This document shows, in pieces, positions 4,928 through 49,975 of a stretch of 62,290 bases of DNA. The position numbers were made by a program, and so were the translations under genes. A model generated the notes under the pieces. It made no database searches. It was not told the DNA's origin and saw only the letters and a program-made list of their open reading frames with translations. The stretch lies in the IMG/VR virus record IMGVR_UViG_3300017963_000048, positions 1-62,290 of that record, one strand, 5' to 3'. This stretch comes from a virus. Position 1 is the first letter of the stretch; every line of letters begins with the position of its first letter.

Positions 4928-6340
4928 TCACACTCTCAATACACGTTTTTTGGGCACCAGATGGCCATCAAATTGGCCACCAGCCACCATATAATAATCG
5001 CCATAACCAGTTTTGACCACCGGCGTGCTGGCACTATCAATGCAGCTGACCGCGGCACTGGCATACACTTCAAAACGCTCTCCCAATTTAAACACATGGA
5101 CTTTGTTTTCGGGAATCGGCTTGCCGGGGGGATTTTCACCCGGGCATTCAGTGCCATAATTGTCAATCTTGTACACACTACAGTTGGCCTCACTGTCATT
5201 GGCCACTAGCACCGTGAAAGTCTCATCTGCTGGTGGTGGCTCTATGGGTGGTGGTGTTTCACCATCATGACTGTGGTGCGCATCAGGATTGCCCAGGTGC
5301 TTAGCAAAATCAGCTTCTAAGTTTGACACTACACCAGACACGTTTTGCAGCTGTGTGGCTTGCACGTCAAGCTGTGTGGTGTTTGAACTGGTTTGGGCTT
5401 CAACATGCACCAGCTGCCCACTTAATTCATCCACTCTAGTGCTCAGCACCGTGATCTGCGCTTGCAGTTCTTCACAGCAGTCATCAGTGGGCGGGGGTGC
5501 TTCAGTCAGACCATAATGCTTTTCAAATGCGGTCCAATCACCTTTGAATAATCCGAGGTCAATACTTAGCGCACCAGTGCTGCCAAAGTAGCTGCCCAAG
5601 CCATTGCCATCTGCTGAGTATTGCCATTCTTCAAACTCTTGCAAGCCAAATGGCCAATCTAGGGGCACATATTGGCCATCTGACCACGGTGACTGCAAGC
5701 CCAAATGATAACGCGCAGCCATCAGGCCAATGTCATTTTGCATCCAATACTGGCTGCGTGCCACGTAGGGATTAAAGAAGCTTAAGCGTGTGTAAACTTG
5801 CAGCATGCGGTTGGTCAAGCCTCCAAAGTGATCACACCAGCGCTTGCAATAGCTGAGCAAACCCGCAGGTGTTAGATTACCGCTGCGCTCCACATCCAGC
5901 CACACTGACAACCGGCCAGCACCACTGATCATGTCAGCTGCTTGCTGTGCAGCTTGCTCTGGTGTGACACTGGTTTGTGCAGGATCCGCAAAATGGTAGA
6001 AACCAATTTCCATGTTCGCATCTTCCGCAGCTTTTAAGTTGTTTTCAAATTGGCTATCTGGCCACAAACCCTGATTGACTTTGATCCACACAGCTCTGAT
6101 GCCACGCTCTCTGGCTGTGTGATAATTCATAGGCCAATTCCATTTGCTGGTGTCTAAGTGCAGCACAGTTGGCCCAATCACAGGTGGCATGGGCACCACT
6201 GGAGCCACATTCACCAAACGCAAAACACCACGCACCGCAGTTTGCAGCAATGGTGTTTCGTTCGGAAAAGCCCCCATTCCGTTTTCATCACGCAAATTGA
6301 TTAAGCGTATATCGGTCAAGTCAGCTTGTTTTGGTTCCAT
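4928..6340 (-). CDS. GH25 lysozyme endolysin with coiled-coil C-terminus (470 aa)
   Basis: Glycoside hydrolase family 25 muramidase that cuts peptidoglycan. Visible signatures: LDTSKW (residues 62-67), the WIKVNQG segment, FYHFADP, catalytic WLDVE (147-151) and a late QEFEEWQYS/DLGLFKG end of the barrel. After residue about 300 comes a paired-Cys segment, a coiled coil (330-380), a His/Asp patch, a Pro-rich linker and a C-terminal beta domain of about 90 residues, possibly cell-wall binding. The ATG at 6340 is chosen because AAGGAGATATTTTAAT precedes it; an upstream extension would be unsupported. The gene lies directly before the holin-like genes. Confidence 0.88.
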   Translation of the reverse strand: MEPKQADLTDIRLINLRDENGMGAFPNETPLLQTAVRGVLRLVNVAPVVPMPPVIGPTVLHLDTSKWNWPMNYHTARERGIRAVWIKVNQGLWPDSQFENNLKAAEDANMEIGFYHFADPAQTSVTPEQAAQQAADMISGAGRLSVWLDVERSGNLTPAGLLSYCKRWCDHFGGLTNRMLQVYTRLSFFNPYVARSQYWMQNDIGLMAARYHLGLQSPWSDGQYVPLDWPFGLQEFEEWQYSADGNGLGSYFGSTGALSIDLGLFKGDWTAFEKHYGLTEAPPPTDDCCEELQAQITVLSTRVDELSGQLVHVEAQTSSNTTQLDVQATQLQNVSGVVSNLEADFAKHLGNPDAHHSHDGETPPPIEPPPADETFTVLVANDSEANCSVYKIDNYGTECPGENPPGKPIPENKVHVFKLGERFEVYASAAVSCIDSASTPVVKTGYGDYYMVAGGQFDGHLVPKKRVLRV

Positions 6341-6378
6341 ATTAAAATATCTCCTTGTTATCATTTTTTGTGCTCCCT

Positions 6379-6392
6379 GTTGCTGTAGCAAC
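6379..6392. repeat. parS-like palindrome site 1
   Basis: GTTGCTGTAGCAAC flanked by T and A (16-bp palindrome), between the endolysin and the next tail gene. Confidence 0.9.
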
Positions 6393-6453
6393 AGCACCAG
6401 CTGCTGCAAGATTTTTATGCGCACCAGGTGCGCTTAATTCAAAAAGTTTTGCG

Positions 6454-7242
6454 TCAACTTTTGAAGGTGTTATAACTCATTTCGCGGGTTTGAAAGACAA
6501 ATTGATTAGCATGAAAAGCACCATGCACTGAGCACCAAGCCATCCTCATTTCGCTTTCTTGGCCACCAGAATATTCACGGCCAATGCTGATGCCGGTGAA
6601 TGCACTGGTATAGAGTGAAGCGGGCACGCCAACCAGATTGCTGTCAGTGACTTCATTGACGGTGATATATAAACCAGCACCAGGGTCAAAGCGCCCACAG
6701 ACATAATAGAAATCACCTTCAGCAATGACCACGCTGCTGGTCACACTGACAATGTTGATGCCATCAGTGGTGACTTGAAAAATTGGCTGGTTTGCAGGAG
6801 TCATCGCAATGCGATAAGATCGGCTAGAAGCTTCACCCCATTTGCCAAAAGTGTGTGAAATTGCCCCACCAGTATTGACCAAACCGAAAAATCCAGTCAA
6901 TGTCAAACCACGTCTGGGAATTTCAATGTAGCTTTCAGTGCCAGTCACATTATATAGATTAGTTGCGCCCTGGTGATCACCGTCAAGATATTCAACATAA
7001 GGCCAATAATCGGGTTGATAAAAACCAACATCGTCATTTAATGACAATGGTGCATCGACTCCATTTTCATTAAATAGCTGACCAGCTTCATCAAAGTAAC
7101 CCGCCCACCAGCTGGCCAAGTGGGCCAGCTGTGTTTTCAGCAGTGGTGGCATGTGCGCCAAAGCCATTGAAGGATTATCTTTACTAAAGAAGTGGGTAGA
7201 CAATAATGCAGTCAGCTGGTCATTTTCTTTCTGTGCTGTCAT
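6454..7242 (-). CDS. Tail or fibre protein with LamG/ConA-like fold (262 aa)
   Basis: Residues 95-250 have the pattern of concanavalin-like (LamG) domains seen in phage fibres: YIEIPRRGLTLTGFFGLV, FQVTTDGI, DFYYVCGRFDPG and YTSAFTGISIG. Such domains bind sugars or complete fibre tips. The start overlaps the previous gene by four bases (ATGA). It is encoded between the tail-tip protein and the endolysin, where receptor-binding proteins usually lie. Confidence 0.65.
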   Translation of the reverse strand: MTAQKENDQLTALLSTHFFSKDNPSMALAHMPPLLKTQLAHLASWWAGYFDEAGQLFNENGVDAPLSLNDDVGFYQPDYWPYVEYLDGDHQGATNLYNVTGTESYIEIPRRGLTLTGFFGLVNTGGAISHTFGKWGEASSRSYRIAMTPANQPIFQVTTDGINIVSVTSSVVIAEGDFYYVCGRFDPGAGLYITVNEVTDSNLVGVPASLYTSAFTGISIGREYSGGQESEMRMAWCSVHGAFHANQFVFQTREMSYNTFKS

Positions 7243-8444
7243 TTGATGCCTTTCAAGCCCATGCGAGCAATCATCTGTGATAATCTTTGGATCTTAACAC
7301 CATTGACACTGTAATCGTAAGGCGCAGTATAGCTGGCCGTTTCAATAAACATCACGCGCCGATCATCAGTCAAAACTGTTGCATCTAACAGTGGTGTGGC
7401 CGGAAAAGCGTTGCGTGCTATCAGCCATTTTCCTGGCAATACGTTCCACGGCTCTACTACATGATCAGTGCCAAAGTCAAGCAGCCTAGATTCCTCACCA
7501 ATTCTTAAAGCATATTCGGCCTGTGTCGGAATTGGTTTATAACGTGCCACCCGATTGGCAAAAATGCCAAATGTCCAGCGCTCGAAGCTGGCACCACCCT
7601 GTGTTAACAGTTCACTGATGATCGTTTGACCAGTGCGCGACTTGTCATCAAGCCTGCGCACCAGAACTGGATTAGTGTCAAAGTCAGTGCTGTCCACAAT
7701 GCCATTTGGATCAGCTGCCAAAACTAACTCTAGCTTGCTGGTGGGTGTGCCACTGATGGTGGTGACTCCTGGTGTGTTGTCATTATAGTAAAATTTTTCT
7801 AAGTAATGACGCAGCCCCAAACACTCTAACTGAATGCTAACTTGACCAGCTGAGAACTGCACACTTTTTTGGTCGTCATTTGGCCAAGCATTTTCCAATA
7901 GATAAGTATCTCTGGCTTGCTCAGCTTCATTGTAAACTGGTGTGGCTGTGGTATCCACCAAAGCCTCGCCTGCATTCAACACCAGCATGTGAGTGCCATA
8001 TTTCGCAATCGAGTCAGTGTCTTGCACAATGATTGTAAAGCGCTGCGCACCTTTCAGAAAAGGAGTGTGCTCAACATAGATAGGCGTATAAGTGGCAATA
8101 ATGTCATTAGAAATGTCTAGCAGTGGCCCAATGGTGCTGGTCAATTCACTCTGCACAAACGTGATCTGGTTGACAATGCCAAGCCAAATCTCATTACCTA
8201 ATTCATCCGTTACCTGAATGATGTAACCAAGCCCTTTCTCATACCAGTCAGAAGCTGTGAAAACATCAGTGCTGAAACCCATGCTGGCAGCATCAAAACC
8301 ACCATCAGCCAAAATGCTGTGGGTGTATGAGGCCAGCTTTTCAGCTAAGCTGTTATCAATCTCTTTGGCAAAAGGGTCAAAGGTGGGATACCAGCTTGGC
8401 TGGTAGACTTTGACAATGATGCCTGTGTTCTTCAAAATGGCCAT
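7239..8444 (-). CDS. Tail-tip / baseplate hub-like protein (401 aa)
   Basis: Follows the two large tail genes after the tape measure, the usual place of the siphovirus hub (Tal/gp27-like) protein. It is beta-rich, with a repeated GIVNQITFVQSE-type strand pattern and a DDKSRTGQTIISELLTQGG helix typical of hub proteins. No catalytic residues seen. The stop of the previous gene abuts this ATG (TAGATG). The call is by position and overall pattern. Confidence 0.55.
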   Translation of the reverse strand: MAILKNTGIIVKVYQPSWYPTFDPFAKEIDNSLAEKLASYTHSILADGGFDAASMGFSTDVFTASDWYEKGLGYIIQVTDELGNEIWLGIVNQITFVQSELTSTIGPLLDISNDIIATYTPIYVEHTPFLKGAQRFTIIVQDTDSIAKYGTHMLVLNAGEALVDTTATPVYNEAEQARDTYLLENAWPNDDQKSVQFSAGQVSIQLECLGLRHYLEKFYYNDNTPGVTTISGTPTSKLELVLAADPNGIVDSTDFDTNPVLVRRLDDKSRTGQTIISELLTQGGASFERWTFGIFANRVARYKPIPTQAEYALRIGEESRLLDFGTDHVVEPWNVLPGKWLIARNAFPATPLLDATVLTDDRRVMFIETASYTAPYDYSVNGVKIQRLSQMIARMGLKGIK

Positions 8445-33958: not shown

Positions 33959-34606
33959 TCAAGCTTCTAAGATACTTTCATCTTTCACCAAGTAGATGGC
34001 TGGCAAGCTGATCACGGTGACAATGGCTTTGAAGATGATCTGGCCACTGGTCAATTGAAGTGCAGCCCATACTGGCATGCTGTCACCACCAAAAAATGGT
34101 GGTAAGAGCACAAAGGCCAGCAGCGCAAATGTGAGCGAGTCAATGGGCAAAGATACTGCATTTGACATCAATACCCTTGACCATTGAGGCATGCGCGGCA
34201 ATTTCATTTTGACCACGTGAAAAATCTCAGTGTCTATGCTTTCACTTAAAATTTCAGCTGTGATGCTGCCAATGGTGATGGCTGGCACAATGGCAAAGAT
34301 GGCACCCCACGATTCAGCCAAACCATAAAAGGCTGGTGCTGGCAGCTGGCCAATGGCCCACAGATAGGCTGCTTGCACCACATTCAGGACACCAGCAGTT
34401 AAAATGGCTGCGCGTGCCCAATCACGTCCCAAGCGCTTATGGATGACATCGCGCAGCGTGAAAGTGAAGGCAAAAATGAACGTGCCTCCGGGAATCACAA
34501 TGCCCCACAACTCCACCAGCTTGGTGGCACCAATGTCAGCAATGGCTTGGCAAATGACATAAGCACCAATTAAATACACAATCGTTCTAATCGTTTTTCG
34601 ATTCAT
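33959..34606 (-). CDS. yhhQ: YhhQ/VUT-family queuosine precursor transporter (215 aa)
   Basis: Six hydrophobic segments and the family-typical GGTFIFAFTFTLRDVIHKRLG stretch near residue 40, SITAEILSESIDT near 117 and LPIDSLTF near 155. YhhQ imports preQ0/preQ1 across the inner membrane. In a phage with QueC and DpdA, it would feed extra 7-deazaguanine precursor to DNA modification. The start follows TTAAAGGAGTTTT. It is the last gene of the 39-34 kb operon. Confidence 0.88.
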   Translation of the reverse strand: MNRKTIRTIVYLIGAYVICQAIADIGATKLVELWGIVIPGGTFIFAFTFTLRDVIHKRLGRDWARAAILTAGVLNVVQAAYLWAIGQLPAPAFYGLAESWGAIFAIVPAITIGSITAEILSESIDTEIFHVVKMKLPRMPQWSRVLMSNAVSLPIDSLTFALLAFVLLPPFFGGDSMPVWAALQLTSGQIIFKAIVTVISLPAIYLVKDESILEA

Positions 34607-34615
34607 AAAACTCCT

Positions 34616-34987
34616 TTAAAATATAATCTCAATCTGGCCGTGGTTGGCAGACTTGCCCGTTAAACTAAAAACTCCTATGCGTGCCTCATCAATCACACTA
34701 CACACATAGTTGAAAATCGTCAAAGCTAATTCTTCAAGCGTAGTGGGTTCATCTGTAATCATGTGCAAAGCTTGGTCAAACTCTGCCCAATCTGGCACCA
34801 ATGACCAATCAGCATCTTTTGACTCTTTGGCAGCCGGGTGCATGCACACAAATGACACCAACAGCAGCGCAGAAATGGCCGGATCATGCTGGTTTGGATC
34901 AGTCAGCTTGCAAGTGGCTTGCAGCTCTGTTTGGTATTCAATCATGGGTGCAGTGTTGTGGGGAATTTCTAACTTAATATATTTCAT
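34616..34987 (-). CDS. Possible T-fold protein (FolB/QueD-like?) (123 aa)
   Basis: The second half (VPDWAEFDQAL...TTLEELALTIFNYV...ARIGVFSLTGKSANHG) has the helix-strand pattern of T-fold enzymes such as dihydroneopterin aldolase and 6-carboxytetrahydropterin synthase. The zinc-binding HxH of QueD is not visible. It overlaps the glycosyltransferase gene by ATGA and sits in the deazaguanine cluster, where a pterin-type enzyme would make sense. Treat as a hypothesis; a structure prediction would decide. Confidence 0.4.
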   Translation of the reverse strand: MKYIKLEIPHNTAPMIEYQTELQATCKLTDPNQHDPAISALLLVSFVCMHPAAKESKDADWSLVPDWAEFDQALHMITDEPTTLEELALTIFNYVCSVIDEARIGVFSLTGKSANHGQIEIIF

Positions 34988-36030
34988 CTATGTCTGCTCC
35001 TGCGTACACTTTTGAAAGTGAGCATCTGGTTAAAAACCAAGTCCACACCAGCCAGCTCTGTGGCCAGCGCATGGGCATTGGGTGCGTGCAGTTGCACAAA
35101 GTCATGCCATTCATCATCTGTGAATGTCAAACCACTTAAAATGGCATCTAGCATTTGATTGTAATCTGCAAAGCGGTATCGTTTAGGCAAGCCAAACACA
35201 TCATAGATTGGCTGATCAGCCAGCAGTGGTGTCAAGCCAAAAAAAAGCGCATTGACAACACTATATGGAAACACTTCTTGGCGTGCATCAGCCCACAAAT
35301 AACCCCCACCACTGCACAGCTGCTTTAAGCGTGACAGAGGCATGAAGCCAGTGAAGGTGATATTTGGATAAAGGCCATTCAGCGCTTGACTCCCTGTTGC
35401 CAAACATTCAATGTTTTCTCTTGCAGCCAGCTTTGCAAACTCAATAAAACGATCTTTGCCTTTGTCATAATCCCACCGGGCAGCATAGATCACGCGCTTA
35501 GCTGCACGCCAATTGACTGGCTTCACGCTGAAGTCAATGGGGTAGGGTTTTACCACTGGCCTGGCATAATCGGGCAGCAAGCTGGCTGCATGTTGACTGC
35601 CCACTATAATCTTGTCATAGCAATGGCATAGATACTCGTCAAAATTAGCAGCATGGGGAATCTGCTCAGCAACGTCACCCACCATGTGTGTGCTGCCATG
35701 ATATAAGGCCACCAGCTGTTTGTTGCTCAGGTCTAATCCAGCTGTGAAAATCTTATACATCAGCAAGGGCAGGAAGGGTGCCCAATAATCTGTGCATAAA
35801 ATCACGTCTGCCCATTCTAGCATTTGACAACTTGGCACTGAAGCAGACCAGTTTTGCACTTGCGTGCGGAAGTTTTCAGGCTTGTAGAATGTTTGATCAT
35901 AACCAAAGCGCTGCACATAAACATTTTTCGCAGCTGCCAGCACTTCCATGACTGGCTGCATGACCAATTCTTCACTGTGGCCAATTTTGCCTAACATTAA
36001 AATATTGACATCATTTTGCTTGGTTGGCAT
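34984..36030 (-). CDS. GT-B glycosyltransferase-like protein (348 aa)
   Basis: Pattern of a family GT4-type enzyme: N-terminal strand (NILMLGKIGHSEE), LVALYHGSTHM, DKIIVGSQHAASL. The C-terminal nucleotide-binding half has RVIYAARWDYDKGKDRFIEFAKL, NITFTGFMP and WADARQEVFPYSVVNAL, including an expected E-x7-E-like end. The ATG at 36030 has a perfect CGGAGGTGATTGAAT ribosome-binding site inside the end of gat-queC. Translationally coupled to gat-queC and DpdA, it may add a sugar to the modified base, or glycosylate another target. Confidence 0.72.
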   Translation of the reverse strand: MPTKQNDVNILMLGKIGHSEELVMQPVMEVLAAAKNVYVQRFGYDQTFYKPENFRTQVQNWSASVPSCQMLEWADVILCTDYWAPFLPLLMYKIFTAGLDLSNKQLVALYHGSTHMVGDVAEQIPHAANFDEYLCHCYDKIIVGSQHAASLLPDYARPVVKPYPIDFSVKPVNWRAAKRVIYAARWDYDKGKDRFIEFAKLAARENIECLATGSQALNGLYPNITFTGFMPLSRLKQLCSGGGYLWADARQEVFPYSVVNALFFGLTPLLADQPIYDVFGLPKRYRFADYNQMLDAILSGLTFTDDEWHDFVQLHAPNAHALATELAGVDLVFNQMLTFKSVRRSRHR

Positions 36031-37375
36031 ATTCAATCACCTCCGAAAACTCATTCATCGCAAATGCAGTTTGACGCATAAAACAAGGCCCACATTCACC
36101 ACAGTGCAGTGGCCCATCTTCATAGCATGACCACGTTTTGTGCATAGGCGCATTCAGTTGCACACCCAATCGCACGATTTCATGCTTCATCAAATTGCCC
36201 ACAGGCATCTCAACATCTATTCTGGTGTTGACGTTCACACTGTAGGGCACCAAGTCAGCAAACAGCTTGGTGAAAATCATTTCATTGTCGGGGTACGCGC
36301 CGGCCTCTTCCAAATTATTGCCCAGCGCAATGACATCATAATGATTAGATTCCGCATAAGCCAAAGCCATTGCATAGAAAATCAGATTCCTGGCCGGTAC
36401 CCATTCATGCGCAAATTCAGCACCAGCAGCACCATGCTTCACAATGCTGGCTGCTGGATTGATCAAGCTGGTTTCCATGCCAGCAAAGACGGCCCGGGTA
36501 TCCACAAAGTCACAAGAGCAGCCCATTTCAAGTGCACAAGCCACCACTGCCTCACGCTCTCTGGCACTGGCTTTGCAGTCATAACCAAAGTGGAGCAAGC
36601 ACACATCATGCCCCGCGTGCACATATTGCTTGGCCGTCACCACTGAATCCAAGCCACCACTGCAAATGACCACCACACGTTTGACACCCGTTTTCTCTGG
36701 CAGCAGTGGAGTTTGCACGATTGACAAATCTGGCTGCACGTCAATGTAGGTATAAGCTGGCAGCTTTTGAATGTTGTCAGCTTCAGATTCCCGCAAGTAT
36801 TCTGGCAAGCTGGCGAATAATAAGAAACCAGCACCACGCAGCATATAGAGTGGTTTATAGTTGCAGGCCAAACTTAAAATACTAAGTTCTGGTGTTGACT
36901 TCATGATGGCCAATGCAAAGCTGCCCACAATTTCATTAGTGAGTGACAGATAAGGGTCATGCTGCAAAAACCAATAAGGCAACACCGCACTGTCAATATC
37001 TGATGTAGGATCTCTGTCAAGCTGCGCCCATAATTGCTTGTCATTGGCAATGATGCCATTATGACTGACGGCCACATGCCCCACAGCACTTTTTGCTGTA
37101 AAGGGCTGCACGTCATTCAGTGTTTTGGTTTTCACAAATTCGGTGGTGGGCTCAGCCCGCGTGTTGGCTATGATGATGTCAGGCACGCCAAGGTAATCAG
37201 CTGCCAAGCCACATGCAGCCAGGTCACTGCCAATGTGCTTGATCTCTTGGCCATCGCTGGTGATCAGTCCCACGCTGTCACGTCCGCGATCATTGGCACG
37301 CTGCAAAGTGCGCAAAAATCTTGCATAAACTTCAATATCTTTGTGATTAGTCTGTAAAGCCACTATACTGCACAT
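36011..37375 (-). CDS. queC: Gat-QueC: class II amidotransferase fused to QueC (454 aa)
   Basis: N-terminal class II glutamine amidotransferase: the nucleophile Cys2 follows the initiator Met (MCSIVAL), then RGRDSVG, IIANTRAEPT and SHNGII. From about 230 comes QueC: PP-loop CSGGLDSVVTAK, LHFGYDCKAS and the zinc site HCGECGPC near 425. QueC makes preQ0 from 7-carboxy-7-deazaguanine. Gat-QueC fusions are known from archaea, where they replace ArcS, and from phages whose DNA carries 2'-deoxyarchaeosine (as in Enterobacteria phage 9g). The start follows TCAGGAGTTGTTAGC. All key motifs are intact. Confidence 0.92.
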   Translation of the reverse strand: MCSIVALQTNHKDIEVYARFLRTLQRANDRGRDSVGLITSDGQEIKHIGSDLAACGLAADYLGVPDIIIANTRAEPTTEFVKTKTLNDVQPFTAKSAVGHVAVSHNGIIANDKQLWAQLDRDPTSDIDSAVLPYWFLQHDPYLSLTNEIVGSFALAIMKSTPELSILSLACNYKPLYMLRGAGFLLFASLPEYLRESEADNIQKLPAYTYIDVQPDLSIVQTPLLPEKTGVKRVVVICSGGLDSVVTAKQYVHAGHDVCLLHFGYDCKASAREREAVVACALEMGCSCDFVDTRAVFAGMETSLINPAASIVKHGAAGAEFAHEWVPARNLIFYAMALAYAESNHYDVIALGNNLEEAGAYPDNEMIFTKLFADLVPYSVNVNTRIDVEMPVGNLMKHEIVRLGVQLNAPMHKTWSCYEDGPLHCGECGPCFMRQTAFAMNEFSEVIEYANQAK

Positions 37376-38298
37376 GCTAACAACTCCTGATAACGTTTCT
37401 CCACATTCAAAAAACCTTCTACAGCTGAAGCCACATAAGGAAATGAAGCGACAACCATGTACATTTTAGGACCAACCCCACGCGGACCAATCATTTCACC
37501 ATAATTTTTTTGCATCCATTTGATCATCAGCCAATAGGCCATGCTTGAAAGATAGGCATAATAATAATGTGCATCTTTGGTTTTACTGTGCTCAAAAAAT
37601 TCAGTAAGGTCAACGCCGAGGGGTTCGAGCAAGTGCCACAGCTGCAAAAACTTGTTTCTGTCAAAGTCACGATTCCTGCGCTGCATGGTGAATTGATTCA
37701 TGGTGCCAAACTTATAATCAAAAACCTGAATGCGCCCGAATACCGGCGCACTCATCCACGTGCTGCTGTCAAAACTATACCAAGGGAAGCGCTTCAAAAT
37801 CTCCCAAGTAGTCACGCCGAATGCGTGATATTTGCAGCCCGTTTCTTCAGCAATTCTGAAAGCATCCACAAAGCGTGACTGCGCACCTTTCGACATCAAA
37901 CTGGTGCCTGCAATGCCACCAATCGCAATGTAGTCAGTTTGGGCAGCATATTTTTTTAACCATTTTATATCTTCACCAGCATGGTAGACTGGCAGCGTAT
38001 GCACCCCCATATCTTTTAAAATCAGCCAATTGTCAAATGACTTGGCTGCACTTGTAACCACATCTAAATTCGATATCGCAGTGAAATAACCATCCCACTT
38101 GGTCAACCAAATTGCATAATCTTTGGGCGAAATGTGAAACCCCTGATTCCCGGCTGTGAAAGCACCACTGTCAGCAAACAAGTCAAAGTCAACATGATCA
38201 CGGAATGGGTCAAAAATTTCACTGAGATTTTTGTTCTTAGCATAATGATATGAAATTAGGATGCTAACTTTAGGCTTAACTGGTGGTGTGCTAGTCAT
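37363..38298 (-). CDS. dpdA: DpdA-like DNA tRNA-guanine transglycosylase homologue (311 aa)
   Basis: TGT-fold enzyme that swaps guanine in DNA for a 7-deazaguanine. Phage DpdA hallmarks are visible: LISYHYAK near 15, DLFADSGAF at 39-47 (catalytic Asp), a second Asp in ISNLDVV, VYHAGED, YIAIGGIAG and YHAFGVTTWEILKRFPWYSFDSSTW. The zinc site of tRNA TGTs is absent, as in phage DpdA. Overlaps gat-queC by 13 bases. With Gat-QueC and YhhQ it forms a compact DNA-modification module. Confidence 0.88.
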   Translation of the reverse strand: MTSTPPVKPKVSILISYHYAKNKNLSEIFDPFRDHVDFDLFADSGAFTAGNQGFHISPKDYAIWLTKWDGYFTAISNLDVVTSAAKSFDNWLILKDMGVHTLPVYHAGEDIKWLKKYAAQTDYIAIGGIAGTSLMSKGAQSRFVDAFRIAEETGCKYHAFGVTTWEILKRFPWYSFDSSTWMSAPVFGRIQVFDYKFGTMNQFTMQRRNRDFDRNKFLQLWHLLEPLGVDLTEFFEHSKTKDAHYYYAYLSSMAYWLMIKWMQKNYGEMIGPRGVGPKMYMVVASFPYVASAVEGFLNVEKRYQELLACAV

Positions 38299-38300
38299 GC

Positions 38301-39149
38301 TTAGCTCAGATCAAGGTCAATGCTGTCAGCTGAGATGTCAGCATTTTCTAGGCTGTGCGCACCTGGTGCGCCAATTTGCTTGGCAGCTGCCAGCAGCACT
38401 GCATGAAACTTGTGCCCTTCTTCCTGGCCTTCAACTTGCTCCATCAGATCAGCCAATAATTCTTCTGCCTCTTGGGGCACACTCATGCGCAAAATTGGCC
38501 AGCGGTCACTATCCACTACTTGGCCAATTTTACGACTGGTTTCTTCTAATTCCGGAAACTCAAAATTTTTCAAAGTTTGCAAGCGCTGCAAATCTTCCAC
38601 ATTTAAGCTGATGATCGCACCACCAGCATCAGCTGTTTTGCCAACTATCTCGGTATATTTGTCAAAATCCCACATGCGTGCCATGTCAGAAAAGGCAAAG
38701 TCACCACCCCCCATTGTCAAGTTATTGCTGTCAATTGCATAGGCCATTGCAGCTGCGCGGCTGACAGCATCAGTGCCAAAGAGAATAGACATCACCCACA
38801 GCCCGTTGCTTTTCAAGCTGGCCACACCGCGTGGGGTGTCTTTGCGCTCAGCTTTGCGCCACTCCTTTTGCAATAAGTGCAAAGCTTCAATGCGCCCATT
38901 TCCAGCTTTGATGGCACCTAATTCACCTTTGACATTAGTCAAATTGCCGTCAAATTTTGGCAACTCTTGAAAACCATGTTCTATAATAGATGCTTGCACT
39001 TGCTTTATATTGTGCAGTTTGGGATTATCTTCCCAAAGCAGCTTGACAGCATCATTGACTTTGACCAGCCCAATCCAGGGCATGTCATTTTCAATGATGT
39101 CATCTTTTTGAATGTTAGTGAATGAAAGATCAGCGACCAAGCTTGACAT
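38301..39149 (-). CDS. ParB/sulfiredoxin-fold domain protein (282 aa)
   Basis: The N-terminal ~110 residues show the ParB-N pattern: LWEDNPKLHNIKQVQASIIEHGFQ followed by AIKAGNGRIEALHLL, i.e. the nucleotide-binding GxGR box. No KorB-type HTH is seen; the rest is helical, ending in a short acidic tail. Such stand-alone ParB-N proteins often accompany DNA-modification genes. The ATG at 39149 follows GTGGAGGCACAAAAA; the long upstream extension is non-coding. A separate full-size ParB is encoded at 51813. Confidence 0.75.
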   Translation of the reverse strand: MSSLVADLSFTNIQKDDIIENDMPWIGLVKVNDAVKLLWEDNPKLHNIKQVQASIIEHGFQELPKFDGNLTNVKGELGAIKAGNGRIEALHLLQKEWRKAERKDTPRGVASLKSNGLWVMSILFGTDAVSRAAAMAYAIDSNNLTMGGGDFAFSDMARMWDFDKYTEIVGKTADAGGAIISLNVEDLQRLQTLKNFEFPELEETSRKIGQVVDSDRWPILRMSVPQEAEELLADLMEQVEGQEEGHKFHAVLLAAAKQIGAPGAHSLENADISADSIDLDLS

Positions 39150-39228
39150 TTTTTGTGCCTCCACACTGTTAGGTATTCTTGATCTTACTATAAAACCAGC
39201 ACAACATGCAAGCGCTGACCAATAAAAT

Positions 39229-39242
39229 GTTGCTATAGCAAC
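39229..39242. repeat. parS-like palindrome site 7 (TA centre)
   Basis: GTTGCTATAGCAAC with flanking T/A; the only copy with a TA centre, hence a perfect self-complementary 16-mer. Confidence 0.9.
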
Positions 39243-39254
39243 ACCAGTGAAGCA

Positions 39255-39277
39255 CAAAAATGCGGTTTTCCCGCATT
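39255..39277 (-). terminator. Intrinsic terminator in the 39.15-39.56 kb gap
   Basis: Perfect 8-bp stem (AAATGCGG / CCGCATTT) with four-nt loop and T-run on the minus strand. A related sequence (GTGAAGCACAAAA..GCGG..CCCGCATTT) occurs at 18630-18670 downstream of the sulfotransferase gene. Confidence 0.75.
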
Positions 39278-39377
39278 TACAGCAGCACACTCTAATGCTG
39301 CATAGAGTGGCCACCACTGCGCTGCACTGGCTGCTTAAAATGTTGAAGCCAAGCACTTGGCTTGGCTTCAATGAATG

Positions 39378-42343: not shown

Positions 42344-42373
42344 ATTATAATGCAAACTTTATAACACTGTCAA
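42344..42373 (-). promoter_or_regulatory. Promoter for the 42.3-39.6 kb operon
   Basis: Minus strand TTGACA, 18-bp spacer, TATAAT, with an operator-like TATAAAGTTTGCATTATA in spacer and -10, similar to the palindromes of the early promoters. Confidence 0.85.
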
Positions 42374-42486: not shown

Positions 42487-43101
42487 TTATGTGATCAGCT
42501 TCAGCAGTTCATCTGCTCCTTCAGGGCCAACACCAGTGATGCGAATGACACCATCACCACTGAAACCTACCTCCCACTCTGGCACGCTTTCAAATTCATG
42601 CAATTGATGTTTGCGCGTGACCATGATGATCTCTTTATTATGACTTCCAATGTAACCAGCAGCAGCACGCTGCGTGACATCGTACCGGCCAGCAATGACC
42701 ACATCCACATGCTGCATGATATAGGCCACATGCTGGTTGGTATTAATCATGGATTCAAGTTGCAAGCTGTTGAAGCCAGTCAGCACAATGATTGACAGGT
42801 CAGGATGATAATTGCGCAAAGCTTCAACCAGTTCGGCCACAGCTTCAGCTTGCTGCAATGGTTCGCCACCACTGATGGTGATGCCATCCAAGCCAGCACT
42901 GCGCTGTGCTGGTGACTGCAAATTCAGCATGGCCAGTAGTTCGCCAGTGCTCAGCACATCACCACCAGCTTGGCTGTGTGTTGGTTTATTGAAGCAAAAC
43001 GCACAGCCAAGCGTGCAGCCTTGATACCAAACTACCATGCGCTTCCCGGGTCCATTGGCCACGCTGCGTGGCATGATGTCATGAATATTGTGGGTCACCA
43101 T
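42487..43101 (-). CDS. Radical SAM / single 4Fe-4S cluster protein, NrdG-like (204 aa)
   Basis: CTLGCAFC gives the CX3CX2C cluster site at C29, C33 and C36. ISGGEPL (SAM-binding GGE) is near residue 77. VVIAGRYDVTQR and GSHNKEIIMVTRKH match the small activating-enzyme branch (NrdG, and the stand-alone proteins encoded beside DUF1257). It could activate a glycyl-radical enzyme, but no such partner is encoded here. It overlaps the DUF1257-DUF2997 gene, so the two probably act together. The start follows TTGGAGCAAACCAC. Confidence 0.8.
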   Translation of the reverse strand: MVTHNIHDIMPRSVANGPGKRMVVWYQGCTLGCAFCFNKPTHSQAGGDVLSTGELLAMLNLQSPAQRSAGLDGITISGGEPLQQAEAVAELVEALRNYHPDLSIIVLTGFNSLQLESMINTNQHVAYIMQHVDVVIAGRYDVTQRAAAGYIGSHNKEIIMVTRKHQLHEFESVPEWEVGFSGDGVIRITGVGPEGADELLKLIT

Positions 43102-43727
43102 GTGGTTTGCTCCAAGTCAGCACCAAACTGGTCAACTTGAAAATATTCCGGCTTGGCTTGAAAATCAATTTGACCATCTAACAGCTGGTCAAATGCACTG
43201 GTGATGCTCTGACACTCAGCACCAGTGACACCAGTCACGTGCTCGATGACTTCACCATCTGCATCCACGATAATTTCAACACGTGCCAAGGCTTTGACAT
43301 CAGCACGCTGCATGTCAATCTGATAACCGGCACCCACCATGTCAGCACCAACTTGGTCAAATTGCTGCTGCGCATAAACCATTGCAGCTGCTTGGCCCAC
43401 ATAGCGCTGCGTCACTTCAACCATCAGCTGTTTAGCAGTTTTGTTGGTAGCATAGCAGTCAGCTTGCAATTCATAATACACGCCTTTGTCATCATGCTTG
43501 GCCACAAAACCAAAATTGCGCAATTCAGCTTTGGCTGCTTTGTTGCGCTTTTCAATTTGGTATGCTGCCAAAATGTTGACTGGTGTTTTTTGCCAGGGAG
43601 TGACTGCGGTCAAGCTGTTCTCATCAGTCAAGCTGGCTTCAATGAAATAACCAAGCTCCAAAAGTGCTTGCACCAGCAAATCTTTACTGCGCAATTTTGC
43701 GCCTTTGATCTTTGTAATGTGTGACAT
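43095..43727 (-). CDS. Ycf35 (DUF1257)-DUF2997 fusion protein (210 aa)
   Basis: Residues 1-120 follow DUF1257/Ycf35: MSHITKIKGAKLRSKDLLVQ, LGY, then GFVAKHDDKGVYYELQAD, and a QRYVGQ helix. Residues about 150-186 match DUF2997 (VEIIVDADGEVIEHVTGVTG, AECQSITSAFDQLL, G). The two domains are normally separate neighbouring genes in cyanobacteria, actinobacteria and plastids (Ycf35); fusion here supports physical interaction. Function unknown in all organisms. The start follows GGGAGAGCATAAA. Confidence 0.8.
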   Translation of the reverse strand: MSHITKIKGAKLRSKDLLVQALLELGYFIEASLTDENSLTAVTPWQKTPVNILAAYQIEKRNKAAKAELRNFGFVAKHDDKGVYYELQADCYATNKTAKQLMVEVTQRYVGQAAAMVYAQQQFDQVGADMVGAGYQIDMQRADVKALARVEIIVDADGEVIEHVTGVTGAECQSITSAFDQLLDGQIDFQAKPEYFQVDQFGADLEQTTW

Positions 43728-43728
43728 T

Positions 43729-44121
43729 TTATGCTCTCCCGTTTGCTTGCCAGCTGTATTGGTTGGCTTTGATCACTGTCAAGTGCAAACCAAACGCACG
43801 CACAGTGCCAGCAAACTGACCAGCTGCATTGATGTGTAAATTGCGCACAGTCCTGATGGCTGTGCGTGTGCCATTGCTGCCACTGTTGAACTGATACCCA
43901 ATATCATCACCATTGATGACAATGAATTGATCACCAATGCGATCAGCTTCAGCTTCAACGATTCTATACTTGGCAGCTTCAGCGCTTTTGCTCAGCATGC
44001 CATTGCCCGTGAGCAAGTCAACTGTATAATCCAACTGGCTTTGGGCAGCTTCAGCAGTCAGTTTGGCATTGCCACCAATCAGCTGACCACTTTGCTTTTC
44101 AATCACTTTGAAAACTTTCAT
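43729..44121 (-). CDS. Hypothetical protein (130 aa)
   Basis: No family recognised. Mixed alpha/beta, with GGNAKLTAEAAQSQLDYTV and a positively charged C-terminus. Driven by its own promoter at 44161-44190 with the ACTGGAGGTCAAAAA leader. It is the first gene of the unit that continues into the DUF1257-DUF2997 and radical SAM genes. Confidence 0.65.
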   Translation of the reverse strand: MKVFKVIEKQSGQLIGGNAKLTAEAAQSQLDYTVDLLTGNGMLSKSAEAAKYRIVEAEADRIGDQFIVINGDDIGYQFNSGSNGTRTAIRTVRNLHINAAGQFAGTVRAFGLHLTVIKANQYSWQANGRA

Positions 44122-44160
44122 TTTTTGACCTCCAGTCAAATGTGTGTGAGTGTTGGTAAC

Positions 44161-44190
44161 ATTATAAAGCTAACTTTATAGAATGGTCAA
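44161..44190 (-). promoter_or_regulatory. Internal promoter of the Ycf35 operon
   Basis: Minus strand TTGACC, 18-bp spacer, TATAAT, with the near-palindrome TATAAAGTTAGCTTTATA (44163-44180), the same operator type as the early plus-strand promoters. Confidence 0.87.
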
Positions 44191-44726
44191 GATACAAAAA
44201 ACAAATGGCTGATATTTTCGCCCATCTTCAGTGTGTCAGTGGTTTGAATGCAGGTCAGTGGAAATCTGCTGCGCAGCCAGTCATGCCCAACTGCATTCAA
44301 AGGCAAACTGTGCAGCGCTTGACCAGCTGCATTGTACATTTCCAGCAGATAACCATTTTCGTCACCACGCAAACCATCTATGCTATCCAGCCAACTGACC
44401 AAATTTTGCAGCTGATGGTTTGCAATTTCAGCACCATCACCATTAAGCACCACAGCCAGTGGCAGTGCATCACAGCCATTGACGTGCAGCTTAAGCAGCA
44501 GCATCTGCACAGCCTCAGCTGGCACACTTGGCTGCTGATCAGCTGCACGTGTGTCATGCTTGCAAACCAGTTGCACCACCACTGACCAAAACAAAGTGCG
44601 CCAAACTTGCTGTGGCTTTAATGTGGCACCTTTGTCAATCAACCACGCTGGCCCACTCCAACGGTGCTGCTGGCCATCTGTACAGGATATCCATAATGTT
44701 TTTTTATACTCCCATTTATTGCTCAT
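44187..44726 (-). CDS. Hypothetical protein (179 aa)
   Basis: No family recognised. Trp-rich N-terminus (WEYKKTLWISCTDGQQHRW), helical middle, beta C-terminus. Overlaps the preceding zinc-ribbon gene by 11 bases and lies between the AAA ATPase and the Ycf35 genes, so it is probably part of the same complex. Confidence 0.6.
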   Translation of the reverse strand: MSNKWEYKKTLWISCTDGQQHRWSGPAWLIDKGATLKPQQVWRTLFWSVVVQLVCKHDTRAADQQPSVPAEAVQMLLLKLHVNGCDALPLAVVLNGDGAEIANHQLQNLVSWLDSIDGLRGDENGYLLEMYNAAGQALHSLPLNAVGHDWLRSRFPLTCIQTTDTLKMGENISHLFFVS

Positions 44727-44919
44727 TTTTTTGCTCCTCGATTAGGTAAGTTTGAAAATGCAAGCGCACACGCTCGATATAAAAGCAGTTTGCGCATTTA
44801 ATAGTGACTGCCAAGCAGTCAAATATTCTGTCAAAGCCTAGCAGATCCGGCTGGCCTAGTTCAATGGTGAAACTTTCACCACACATGCTGCACGTCACTT
44901 GCAAATTGCCTGCAATCAT
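44716..44919 (-). CDS. Small zinc-ribbon protein (67 aa)
   Basis: CSMC and CANC pairs, about 31 residues apart, make a single zinc ribbon. The start is set by GAGGAGAAAAATT. It is encoded 75 bases after the AAA ATPase, with the parS-like palindrome at 44956 between them. Likely an adaptor or nucleic-acid-binding component. Confidence 0.65.
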   Translation of the reverse strand: MIAGNLQVTCSMCGESFTIELGQPDLLGFDRIFDCLAVTIKCANCFYIERVRLHFQTYLIEEQKNEQ

Positions 44920-44955
44920 AATTTTTCTCCTCACTTGGTGGTGTTGCTCAGCTGC

Positions 44956-44969
44956 GTTGCTGTAGCAAC
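44956..44969. repeat. parS-like palindrome site 8
   Basis: GTTGCTGTAGCAAC between the AAA ATPase and zinc-ribbon genes. Confidence 0.9.
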
Positions 44970-44993
44970 ACCACCAAAATTGACATCATAATT

Positions 44994-46823
44994 TTATAGC
45001 TTGCGCCCACCAGTTCTGCGTTCCACTTCCAGTGCTTCAGTTATGCGTGCATCCACTTCAGCCCGATTTTCAGCAATTTCAGCACGATACTGTGGTGGCA
45101 AGTAGTCAATATCGTTGACAGCTGCAATGGCCAAATCTTCAAAAAGTTGGTTTTCACGCTGATCTGGCACTACAATTTTAGTGCTGGCCTCTGTCATGAA
45201 TTGAATGAAGTCAGCAGCTGTGCAAGTTTCCAGCGTTTGACCGGCTTTATACATGATGCTCTTGGCTTTGTTAGCGCTGCGCTCTATATAAGCACCAGTC
45301 CACTTGTCGGTGTTATCCAAGTATGCTGCTGTAATGTCATTCGTCACAAAAGTGCGCTGCGCAGCTTTGCTGGCCATCACAGCTGCAATGCTGGCACGTT
45401 CTTCAGCAGCTGGCACTGTGAAAGCTTGCACCACGTCAAAACGTCCTGGCCTTTTCAAAGCACCATCAATATAATCTGGCCGGTTGGTGGCTGCCAGGAA
45501 AATGATGTCACCACGATGACTGGTGTCACCAATAAATTCAAGCCAGCCAGCAAACATGCCTTTTTCTGTTTCATGACTGTCAGCACCACCACGCCCCATT
45601 TGCTGGTCAATTTCATCCAAAAACACCACGCATGGTGCAAAAGCACGCAGCGCTCTGAATAGCTTTTCCTGATTTCGTCCAGTGCTGCCCACATATTTGT
45701 CACGCAGCTTGCGCAAGTTGACTTTGACTGCATTGATCTTGGCTTCAAAGGCAATCGCTTCAGCCATGATTGACTTGCCAGTTCCAGGTGCTCCCGCAAA
45801 CAGCACCCCCATTGGTACGATGCTTTTCATTTCACTGTCACCACTCAGCATTGGTGCAATGACATCAGTTTCAAAGTAATCTTTGATCCACTGCAAGCCA
45901 CCAATGTGATCAAAGCCAAAGCGTGGATACCAGACTTCCAAAACTTCACCATATTCTGACTTAATGATCTCTTGTTTGCGTGCAGCCACGTGTGCAGCAT
46001 CCAACCAGCCCACCTCATCAGCACGCATGAAAATATCTTCAATGTGCAAGCACTGCAAGCCACTGGTGAGCGCTGCAATTTGGTGGTCACTCATTTCAGT
46101 TGAAAATCCAAAGCTGCCAGTATCTTTGTACCAGTCAATGAAGTGCAAGCGCTCATTATAGTCAGGCATGCACATTTCAATCAGTTCAATGCGTGATGAA
46201 GCACTCTGCAAGTTGCTGTGAATATCAGCCAAGTTTTGTGTAATCAAGCACACCACATTGGCACTGGCTGCAATAGTTTTGTCGCGCCCCCAAGTCAGCG
46301 CTGTGGCCAAATTGATGCGATCACCAGCGTTGCCACTGTTGCCAGCTGGAAATAATAAGTCAGCATTTTTCACAATGACAGCTGCTTTTTTGGGTGTTGA
46401 AGCCTCACCAGCTGCAATGGCTTTGGCCAAGTCAGCATCAATGTCAGCTGTGCAGCGCAGCAAACGTGTGATCAACATCAAAGCCACGCCAGGATTATGC
46501 TGCATTGGTCCTTGCTGGCCCATGATCACACCAGCTGCTTGGGCTTGCGGTCTGTTTTGCGTGGCCTCCAAACCAAGCGCCTGCAAAAATGCACGCTTAT
46601 TAGGTTCTTCTGGCTGGCCACTGTCAAACGGAAAGCTGAAGCCTTCAGCAATGTCGTACACGACTGTAATTTCGGCGTGCAGCAAGTTGATTAAAGCAGT
46701 TTCCAGTGGCAAGCCTGGCACTGCAAAATCCTGCGTATTGCCATGCAGCAAAAAAGCATGCGCAATTGAAGCACCATACTTTTCACTTAAGTCACTTGCC
46801 CAATTTGGTTGATAAGTAGTCAT
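44994..46823 (-). CDS. Ycf46-like tandem AAA ATPase (609 aa)
   Basis: The C-terminal AAA module is complete: FDHIGGLQWIKDYF entry, Walker A GAPGTGKS near 345, Walker B VVFLDEID near 397, and second region of homology ATNRPDYIDGALKRPGRFD near 450 with an arginine finger. The N-terminal ~320 residues look like a degenerate AAA domain (KAAVIVKNADLLFP, VVCLITQNLADIHSN, IELIEMCMPDYNER) without a usable P-loop, as in plastid/cyanobacterial Ycf46. Expected to remodel a protein target. The start follows AACTGGAGGCAAAAAA. It is the first gene of the operon with the Ycf35 fusion. Confidence 0.85.
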   Translation of the reverse strand: MTTYQPNWASDLSEKYGASIAHAFLLHGNTQDFAVPGLPLETALINLLHAEITVVYDIAEGFSFPFDSGQPEEPNKRAFLQALGLEATQNRPQAQAAGVIMGQQGPMQHNPGVALMLITRLLRCTADIDADLAKAIAAGEASTPKKAAVIVKNADLLFPAGNSGNAGDRINLATALTWGRDKTIAASANVVCLITQNLADIHSNLQSASSRIELIEMCMPDYNERLHFIDWYKDTGSFGFSTEMSDHQIAALTSGLQCLHIEDIFMRADEVGWLDAAHVAARKQEIIKSEYGEVLEVWYPRFGFDHIGGLQWIKDYFETDVIAPMLSGDSEMKSIVPMGVLFAGAPGTGKSIMAEAIAFEAKINAVKVNLRKLRDKYVGSTGRNQEKLFRALRAFAPCVVFLDEIDQQMGRGGADSHETEKGMFAGWLEFIGDTSHRGDIIFLAATNRPDYIDGALKRPGRFDVVQAFTVPAAEERASIAAVMASKAAQRTFVTNDITAAYLDNTDKWTGAYIERSANKAKSIMYKAGQTLETCTAADFIQFMTEASTKIVVPDQRENQLFEDLAIAAVNDIDYLPPQYRAEIAENRAEVDARITEALEVERRTGGRKL

Positions 46824-46897
46824 TTTTTTGCCTCCAGTTTGCAAAAAGTGTGTCACGTGCAGTGTGTCAGCTGCACTGTGTAAAATTGTGTAAAATC

Positions 46898-48541: not shown

Positions 48542-48988
48542 TCAAAATCCTAATTCCTTGAGTGCTTCAGCTTCATTGAATGGTTTGTCTTTTAATTCAG
48601 CCAAGCGTGCTGAGTGCCACGGCTCAATCTCATGCCAGCGGATTGCTCTGTCAATGTGGAACCATTCTTCATGTGCTCTTTGTTTATGATATTCACGCGT
48701 TATGCGTGAAATGAAGTAAGGCCGGTCAGCATGCTCTTTGCAATATACCAGCCACAGGTCATGATCACCAGCAGCGCGTTTGGCTTGCAAAAAGTCACCA
48801 CAGTGCGCGCAGCAATAGTGATCGGTTAAGCGCACCATCACTGCACGTGTAAACACTGTGGGCTTGATTTCTTCATTAGCAGCTGACTGGCCACGCTTGG
48901 TGTGCTCAACTACTCTGCCAGTGGTGAATCTAGTCAAGCGCAAATTCTGTTTGCTTTGCTTTGGTTTTTGGTTTGGTTTGGTTTCCAT
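48542..48988 (-). CDS. Zinc-finger hypothetical protein (148 aa)
   Basis: CCAHCGDF near residue 65 and a later CKEHAD make a CxxC/CxxH-type zinc site; the N-terminus is basic. The ATG at 48988 is chosen because GGAGGCAATAAAAACGGAA precedes it; a longer TTG-start version overlaps the methylase-like gene further. Possibly nucleic-acid binding. Confidence 0.6.
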   Translation of the reverse strand: METKPNQKPKQSKQNLRLTRFTTGRVVEHTKRGQSAANEEIKPTVFTRAVMVRLTDHYCCAHCGDFLQAKRAAGDHDLWLVYCKEHADRPYFISRITREYHKQRAHEEWFHIDRAIRWHEIEPWHSARLAELKDKPFNEAEALKELGF

Positions 48989-49934
48989 TTCCGTTTTTAT
49001 TGCCTCCAGTTGTTTTTTGGTTTTGAAATTTCGTGTCAAGTGATTTTTGCATAACTCCTTTCATTAACAGCATGCGCTTGGTGGTGTCACGGCGCTTGCG
49101 TTCTTGCTCAGTCAGCTGCTTGGCCAGGGCTTCAGCTTGCAGCCATTGACTGTGCGTGATAGGTTTGCGATTCAAACCATATAGCATGCAGTTGACTTTG
49201 GCCATGTTGACGCAATCTAAGTCAATATCTTGACCATAAAATTGAACCAAGCCAAAGTCAATCTGCCAGCGTGGTATCTGCTCAGCAGCTGCCAGCAGCA
49301 GCCTGCCACTGCCAACGGCTGGATCACATATGGAAATTGGTTTTAGATAAGCATGCTGCATGGCCAAAGCTTTTTGCATGCTGCGTGTGGGGTCCAAACT
49401 ACTCAGAAGCACCACGCTTTCAAGTAAAATGCGCTCAGCTGCTGGCATTTTGGCACGTGCATCATCAAACGCTTGCAGCAGCATGGCATGCACGTCATTT
49501 TCACCCATGATGGTGCTGGCCATCATTTTGCACACTGGCCGAGGTGTGAAGTATTGACCAGCGTGTGGATTGGGGTAACCATAATTCATGTACACCTCAC
49601 CCAAATAGTCAATATATTCACCAGCTTTGGCAGCTTCGTCAGCTGCTGTCACCATATAATCAAAAGCACCAATGAAGCGCTGCCAGTGCTCAGCACGTGT
49701 GTACCGTCCACGCAAACGTGCAAACAGCTGCTGCACGTCTTCAGGGTCTTGCTCTGGTGGCAGTGGCACACCATGCTGCTGCATGTGCAGTGCGTGGGCT
49801 GGCAACATGCGCAAATAAGCCTCACATAATGCGATGAAGTCATTGCACAAGTCATAACAGTTAACCCCGCTATTTTCAGTTTTGCTGATAATTTTGACAA
49901 TTTCAGCAGCCACATGTGACTCTGAAAAATTCAT
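48930..49934 (-). CDS. Truncated N6-adenine methylase-like protein (334 aa)
   Basis: The N-terminal helical part leads to GQYFTPRPVCKMMAS and the SAM motif ICDPAVGSGRLLL near 213, then YGQDIDLDCVNMAKVNCMLYGL, all typical of HsdM/N6-methylases. The catalytic (N/D)PP(Y/F) motif expected next is missing; instead the protein ends in a Lys/Asn/Gln-rich tail. It is therefore probably not a methyltransferase, but may bind SAM or DNA. The start follows ACTGGAGGTCAATCA. Confidence 0.75.
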   Translation of the reverse strand: MNFSESHVAAEIVKIISKTENSGVNCYDLCNDFIALCEAYLRMLPAHALHMQQHGVPLPPEQDPEDVQQLFARLRGRYTRAEHWQRFIGAFDYMVTAADEAAKAGEYIDYLGEVYMNYGYPNPHAGQYFTPRPVCKMMASTIMGENDVHAMLLQAFDDARAKMPAAERILLESVVLLSSLDPTRSMQKALAMQHAYLKPISICDPAVGSGRLLLAAAEQIPRWQIDFGLVQFYGQDIDLDCVNMAKVNCMLYGLNRKPITHSQWLQAEALAKQLTEQERKRRDTTKRMLLMKGVMQKSLDTKFQNQKTTGGNKNGNGNQTKPKTKAKQTEFALD

Positions 49935-49975
49935 TGATTGACCTCCAGTGATCAAAATGTGTGTGTGTCAAGCGT

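Follow-up and report, generated by a model that had tools for sequence, protein, structure and literature searches.

A glycosyltransferase in a compact phage 7-deazaguanine gene cassette and the possible glycosylation of modified bases in viral DNA

The fused enzyme Gat-QueC and the DNA guanine transglycosylase DpdA together form a known phage route to 2'-deoxyarchaeosine (dG+), and the pair is common in phages. In phage 9g, the dG+ system consists of FolE, QueD, QueE, Gat-QueC, and DpdA. According to published work, dpdA and gat-queC of 9g alone yield dG+ in plasmid DNA in Escherichia coli, and the pair is active in cells lacking host queC but inactive in cells lacking host queD (PMC6884629). 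The same work describes YhhQ as carried by some phages and host precursor as thought to be used by some, and treats the question of whether Gat-QueC acts before or after base insertion as undecided even for 9g. Here, we describe a related locus in the viral IMG/VR record IMGVR_UViG_3300017963_000048, the whole 62,290 bases of which we call the window, where genes for DpdA, Gat-QueC, and a YhhQ-type transporter are packed together with a gene for a glycosyltransferase (GT). The DpdA/Gat-QueC/YhhQ part of the cassette is ordinary; the GT is what is new. We consider it probable that this locus is a mobile DNA-hypermodification cassette whose products put an archaeosine-type base into the DNA and subsequently attach a sugar to it.

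The cassette consists of six tightly packed minus-strand genes (window positions 33959-39371) encoding, in order, a ParB-like protein, DpdA, Gat-QueC, the GT, a 123-amino-acid (aa) protein, and YhhQ. An initial annotation of the window had named DpdA, Gat-QueC, and YhhQ with their key motifs, which family matches and motif alignments bear out, and had overlooked the two genes lying between Gat-QueC and YhhQ, the GT gene (34984-36036) and the 123-aa gene (34616-34987). The five genes from DpdA to YhhQ either overlap or lie no more than 9 bases apart: dpdA and gat-queC overlap by 13 bases, gat-queC and the GT gene by up to 26 depending on the start codon, and the GT and 123-aa genes by 4, and a 9-base gap separates the 123-aa gene from yhhQ. 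The ParB-like gene (38301-39371; phrog_723, E of 0.08) lies 2 bases upstream of dpdA and may be a regulator or companion of the cassette.

Compared with the described systems, the window resembles phage 9g in its Gat-QueC (40% identity) and DpdA (25% identity), with the motifs conserved. The two differ in what surrounds this pair, since FolE, QueD, and a radical-SAM "organic radical activating enzyme" lie nearby in 9g, whereas the window has YhhQ and the GT, and FolE, QueD, and QueE were not found; 9g is also absent from the phages whose GT matched that of the window. In the clusters of phages PA5oct, ACP17, and Phosso, as in the window, a member of the window GT's family lies next to transglycosylase or precursor genes. 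However, these clusters have a DpdA2-type transglycosylase instead of the DpdA1-like enzyme of the window, FolE or QueE, and a small GT-adjacent protein that we call Tf, and QueC was not found in them. The Xanthomonas phage PhiXhv-15, like the window, combines Gat-QueC with a same-family GT, but it is a jumbo phage with a distant DpdA2-like gene and an additional PIG-L deacetylase and oxidoreductase. In idea, the proposed chemistry is also akin to that of T4-type DNA glucosyltransferases, which are described as adding a sugar to a modified DNA base after replication; they act on a different base, 5-hydroxymethylcytosine (PMC13216743).

The assignment of the window GT, a GT-B/GT4-like protein, was made by profile comparison. 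A profile of five Gat-QueC-linked GTs, from which the window sequence was left out, gave it 189 bits (E of 1e-57), and the same profile reached all 50 core GTs at E < 1e-3 and 1 of 103 control open reading frames (ORFs; E of 5e-4). With a 52-sequence family profile, the window GT scored 20.1 bits (E of 1e-4 among 6,644 ORFs), and control ORFs taken from 30 loci of generic GT4s did not exceed 2.9 bits; when Xanthomonas-type members were removed from this profile, the window GT was found only at E of 0.07. In profile-profile comparison, the Gat-QueC-linked GTs matched the core family at P of 1e-26 versus 4e-9 for generic GT4s. Because a generic-GT4 profile gives the window GT 11.4 bits, it keeps a trace of the wider GT4 superfamily. 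Conserved D, W, H, D, R, K, and E positions are common to the window GT, the core GTs, and the PhiXhv-15 GT, and some of these vary in three Gat-QueC loci, L140, L142, and L206. A tree that predates the finding of these three loci, and hence does not include them, places the PhiXhv-15 GT as sister to the window GT with an ultrafast bootstrap (UFBoot) value of 99 on long branches, and splits the GT family plus the window from six generic GT4s (UFBoot 72); the branch to the window is very long (4.5) and could be subject to long-branch attraction. These sequence comparisons place the window GT in a phage family tied to 7-deazaguanine genes rather than among the generic GT4s. With the window GT as query, tblastn returned only four phage records (E of 3e-5, 24% identity), those of an Erwinia phage and three Xanthomonas jumbo phages, which have nearly identical GTs. 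Neither the window GT nor the 123-aa protein gave a match when searched directly against IMG/VR, an IMG/VR search found no relatives of P0003, and the window GT had no match in 151 genomes of one candidate host phylum considered below, an empty result that is weak evidence.

The GT family is tied to 7-deazaguanine genes across phages. Searching 50,697 phage records with the PhiXhv-15 GT retrieved 18 records in four lineages, and all four lineages sit in 7-deazaguanine clusters (an unannotated Erwinia record was read separately). The PhiXhv-15 cluster runs Gat-QueC, PIG-L deacetylase, GT, and Gfo/Idh/MocA oxidoreductase, with a DpdA2-like protein bearing DSGGFQ elsewhere in the genome. The ACP17 cluster comprises QueD, FolE, a DpdA2-like gene with a 4-base overlap, the GT, and QueE; in PA5oct, a DpdA2-like gene overlaps the GT gene and QueE follows; and in Phosso the GT is accompanied by FolE and QueE, with DpdA2 far away. 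Neither phrog_887 nor the window DpdA as query found a DpdA in the jumbo phages. A DpdA2 query finds the PhiXhv-15 and Phosso genes and misses that of ACP17, which was read by motif.

A scan of IMG/VR with the aligned GTs of three seeds gave 50 loci, which merging at 90% GT identity reduced to 42, and 39 of these 42 hold at least one of DpdA2, FolE, QueE, and QueD. Among 30 control loci centered on TerL, only one does (L019); the controls are other contigs, unmatched for genome size or locus length. The individual counts in the 42 loci are 34 for Tf, 31 for QueE, 30 for FolE, 27 for DpdA2, and 11 for QueD, and 134 of 135 such precursor and transglycosylase genes, Tf included, lie on the GT strand. 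Loci with none of the four marker genes are the L075-L078 group, which has Tf only, L087, and L089. Because the seeds themselves came from 7-deazaguanine clusters, the scan may have overlooked distant relatives that lack such a link, and one locus, L094, matches the ACP17 record, which is one of the seeds. Around the GT loci L054-L103, taken with L047-L050, neighbors named by eye also recur, namely flap-endonuclease-like (27 of 45 loci), phosphoribosyltransferase-like (18), zinc alcohol dehydrogenase-like (8), and cupin-like (5) genes.

The cassette itself recurs in L140. We scanned with a Gat-QueC alignment and considered the best 80 of 162 loci; a GT of the window's family occurs in three of these 80, L140, L142, and L206, beside Gat-QueC, as it does in the Xanthomonas/Erwinia jumbo phages. 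The order in L140 is ParB-like, DpdA, Gat-QueC, Gfo/Idh/MocA, GT, second GT, a 105-aa protein, YhhQ, terminase, and portal, where terminase and portal were assigned by eye and position. Relative to the window counterparts, identity is 31% for the ParB-like protein (E of 5e-36), 33% for DpdA (1e-47), 47% for Gat-QueC, 63% for YhhQ, and 29% and 30% for the two GTs, and no significant similarity was found between the terminase and portal proteins of the two. As in the window, no FolE, QueD, or QueE was seen in the 12.6 kb of L140. Because L140 repeats the gene set beside an unrelated terminase and portal, the cassette appears to move as a unit between otherwise different phages. A Gfo/Idh/MocA oxidoreductase gene is present in exactly the three GT-bearing loci of the 80 and in none of the other 77, a coincidence with a chance of 1 in 82,160 if loci are independent, although loci cut by contig ends could conceal further copies. 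Genes of this kind are also present in the Xanthomonas/Erwinia cluster and at a further eight GT loci. The two tandem GT genes of L140 (positions 5413-7331), both at about 30% identity to that of the window, perhaps serve two sugars or two acceptors. Elsewhere among the Gat-QueC and DpdA loci, Gat-QueC of Microbacterium phage Megan comes immediately after two neighboring genes that carry the annotation queuine tRNA-ribosyltransferase (L138, 670-2543), and a DpdA in L003 (9328-11145; also in L002) carries, by eye, an intein-like insertion just before the SVDSSSW motif of the second aspartate.

The known part of the cassette looks catalytically intact from its motifs. DpdA (37363-38298, 311 aa, DpdA1-like; phrog_887, E of 2e-39) retains DSGAF with D43, and D177-S178, which are invariant across eight aligned DpdA proteins including that of 9g; we take D43 and D177 to be the catalytic aspartate pair. 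Gat-QueC (36011-37375) matches Pfam QueC (E of 1e-48), GATase_7 (E of 1e-11), and phrog_10428 (E of 4e-103), and consists of an N-terminal class II glutamine amidotransferase domain with Cys2 fused to a QueC domain with SGG-DS and zinc cysteines. Cys2, SGG-DS, and the cysteines of WSCY...HCG-CGPC are invariant in seven Gat-QueC proteins, again including 9g; on the single-domain model TIGR00364 the fusion scores 122 bits, below the 150-bit cutoff. The YhhQ/QPTR-type protein (33959-34606) matches Vut_1 (E of 2e-29) and the "queuosine precursor transporter" model TIGR00697 (84.7 bits against a cutoff of 50.95). In tblastn searches of the 50,697 phage records, 207 have a match to the window Gat-QueC, which in 64 spans 80% or more of the protein, and 233 match the window DpdA. 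Gat-QueC is thus predicted to be a preQ0/archaeosine synthase, DpdA to insert a 7-deazaguanine base in DNA, and YhhQ to import preQ0 or preQ1.

These predictions suggest a pathway that would begin with precursor from the host or with preQ0 or preQ1 imported through the phage YhhQ. Since the 9g pair fails without host queD but works without queC, reliance on host or imported precursor, as the initial annotation had proposed, is plausible (PMC6884629). Gat-QueC would form preQ0 and then the amidino, archaeosine-type base, DpdA would swap this base for guanine in viral DNA, and the GT would then add a sugar, giving a glycosylated 7-deazaguanine. In related clusters, the Gfo/Idh/MocA oxidoreductase, and in one case the PIG-L deacetylase, probably tailor the sugar. 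For the window phage, we infer base insertion and glycosylation, the acceptor atom, the sugar, the order of the steps, and any protection from restriction. The earlier expectation of dG+ therefore needs extending: insertion of a 7-deazaguanine base stands and deoxyarchaeosine is expected from Gat-QueC by comparison with the 9g pair (PMC6884629), but the GT alters the predicted end product.

Several observations weigh against glycosylation of DNA by this cassette. The case for a sugar on DNA is made from genes and not from chemistry. The window GT falls below the Pfam Glycos_transf_1 cutoff (17.6 versus 26.4 bits) and is hence filed only as GT4-like; 14 of 34 members of its family match that model, with a best E of 1e-6. 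Sequence searches found no solved relative of the family, and single-sequence structure models of the 123-aa protein and the GT were unusable (mean predicted local distance difference test scores of 40.1 and 39.5, respectively). No Gfo/Idh/MocA gene was found in the window. Gat-QueC phages usually lack a GT of this family, which is absent from 77 of the 80 loci, so the GT is an add-on. Furthermore, the family occurs mostly with DpdA2 clusters without QueC: a true QueC is present in 1 of 26 GT-bearing records, many of them fragments, and two further records have short, weak QueC matches only. Because QueC was mostly not found, the acceptor base would not be identical everywhere, unless the host supplies QueC; in the QueC-less records, the sugar may go to carboxy-deazaguanine or to a base whose synthesis draws on QueC of the host.

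We weighed three other explanations against the proposed glycosylation. If the cassette were a plain deoxyarchaeosine module, the DNA would carry dG+ and the GT would act on an unrelated target. DpdA and Gat-QueC do suffice for dG+ in E. coli in the 9g work (PMC6884629), and with 77 of the best 80 Gat-QueC loci devoid of the GT, sugar-free dG+ would be the usual outcome. However, the GT gene overlaps gat-queC and is kept in the L140 cassette despite the unrelated terminase and portal, and in 39 of 42 loci its family occurs together with 7-deazaguanine genes; we therefore regard this explanation as unlikely. A GT that decorates some other molecule, such as host tRNA queuosine, lipopolysaccharide, or a protein, has precedents: animal galactosyl- and mannosyl-queuosine bear a sugar on a 7-deazaguanine nucleoside, but in tRNA and on the cyclopentene ring of queuosine (PMC12518689), and phage GT clusters can serve surface sugars, as in cyanophages (PMC7824862). 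Against such acceptors, the GTs of this family adjoin DpdA or DpdA2-type genes, and no generic GT4 turned up when the 80 Gat-QueC loci were searched with a bacterial-GT4 profile. DpdA and DpdA2-type enzymes are DNA-specific transglycosylases, and a non-DNA acceptor seems to us distinctly improbable.

It would be more surprising still if the module served only precursor supply or tRNA modification and left virion DNA unmodified. YhhQ is a queuosine-precursor importer, and a tRNA role has been proposed for preQ0/G+ genes found without DpdA in some phages, but in the same source the 9g DpdA modified DNA and did not replace E. coli tgt (PMC6884629). The DpdA in the window operon also keeps both conserved aspartates, and we give this last explanation very little credence. 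Beyond the window, we see roughly even chances that a broader class of phage hypermodification exists in which a dedicated GT4-like family places sugars on 7-deazaguanines, borne by cassettes between unrelated phages and acting on two chemical backgrounds. Within that evenly balanced proposal, one background would be the Gat-QueC archaeosine-type base with DpdA1- or DpdA2-type enzymes, and the other a QueC-less, possibly carboxy-deazaguanine-type base with DpdA2-type enzymes.

The 123-aa protein, which has a similarly placed small counterpart in L140, matches nothing in Pfam, PHROG, or NCBIfam. The initial annotation had spoken of one possible T-fold protein, which profile comparisons of the 123-aa protein with QueD, FolE, and Tf did not confirm: the hhalign probabilities are 0.3 for Tf, 3.1 for QueD, and 0.9 for FolE. 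A motif reading of the 123-aa protein as QueF-like or QueD-like is likewise unsupported by the QueD, FolE, and Tf profiles. It matches the 105-aa protein of L140 by phmmer at 0.006; pairing the two raises the hhalign values to about 27 for QueD and FolE, and the L140 protein itself has a weak FolE-family match (E of 0.013). In phages, the 123-aa protein gave only nonsignificant matches, to two records of one phage. A T-fold is possible for this protein. By comparison, Tf is QueD-like by hhalign (probability 88 to 90) with three invariant histidines, and none of its members matches Pfam.

Absences of genes hold for the 62,290 bases of this single record, which may be a fragment. Terminase and further structural genes are present. 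Within this record, FolE, QueD, and QueE profiles found nothing except a weak QueE match (2e-5) at 42487-43101, in agreement with the initial annotation. We rejected this gene as a QueE, as it scores 98 bits as an NrdG-type activase versus 26 as QueE; NrdG-type activase is its best description, yet 98 bits lies below the 126-bit cutoff of that model. It appears to be an orphan NrdG/glycyl-radical-activase-like radical SAM gene, no NrdD having been noticed among the window genes scanned. The complete FolE-QueD-QueE precursor route, not found in the record, is not obligatory for 7-deazaguanine systems. Next to this radical SAM gene, a DUF2997-containing gene lies beside a CDC48/FtsH-like AAA ATPase (43095-46856), a possible separate system. 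DNA methylation by the phage is a further possibility, given an N6_Mtase-like gene (48930-49955, E of 1e-13). Upstream of the minus-strand run leading to the cassette lies a sigma-70-like promoter (42344-42373, minus strand) that agrees with the consensus at 12 of 12 bases; the total number of promoters in the window is near chance (14 versus 11.5). No tRNA genes were found in the window.

A Chloroflexota host, as previously suggested, is possible but was not established. We found no close relative of the window; the nearest is L005, a contig of 4.7 kb whose TerL is 50% identical. Six TerL relatives in genome contigs fall under six taxon names, namely metagenome-assembled genomes (MAGs) of Anaerolineae, Acidimicrobiales, Planctomycetota, Gemmatimonadaceae, and Sulfuritalea, together with Rubrobacter. 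Of the 151 genomes from the phylum to which the Anaerolineae MAG belongs, 26 have QueC above cutoff and 52 have a YhhQ-type transporter. If the host belongs to this phylum, salvage would matter for many species.

In the literature searched, we found no description of glycosylated 7-deazaguanine DNA or of a GT of the window's type; passages of a survey of jumbo phages mention the PA5oct deazaguanine system but not the GT (PMC7824862). Cultured phages with a GT of the window's family, namely PA5oct-like phages on Pseudomonas aeruginosa PAO1, ACP17, Phosso, and PhiXhv-15, allow the prediction to be tested at once. If it is correct, the rule that Gat-QueC means dG+ may be incomplete, 7-deazaguanine bases in phage DNA would bear sugars, as some modified pyrimidines do, and a gene that lies beside DpdA2-type genes in many large phages would gain a role and provide new DNA-labeling enzymes. 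Such sugars would also confer resistance to restriction enzymes, and perhaps to CRISPR nucleases, beyond that conferred by dG+.

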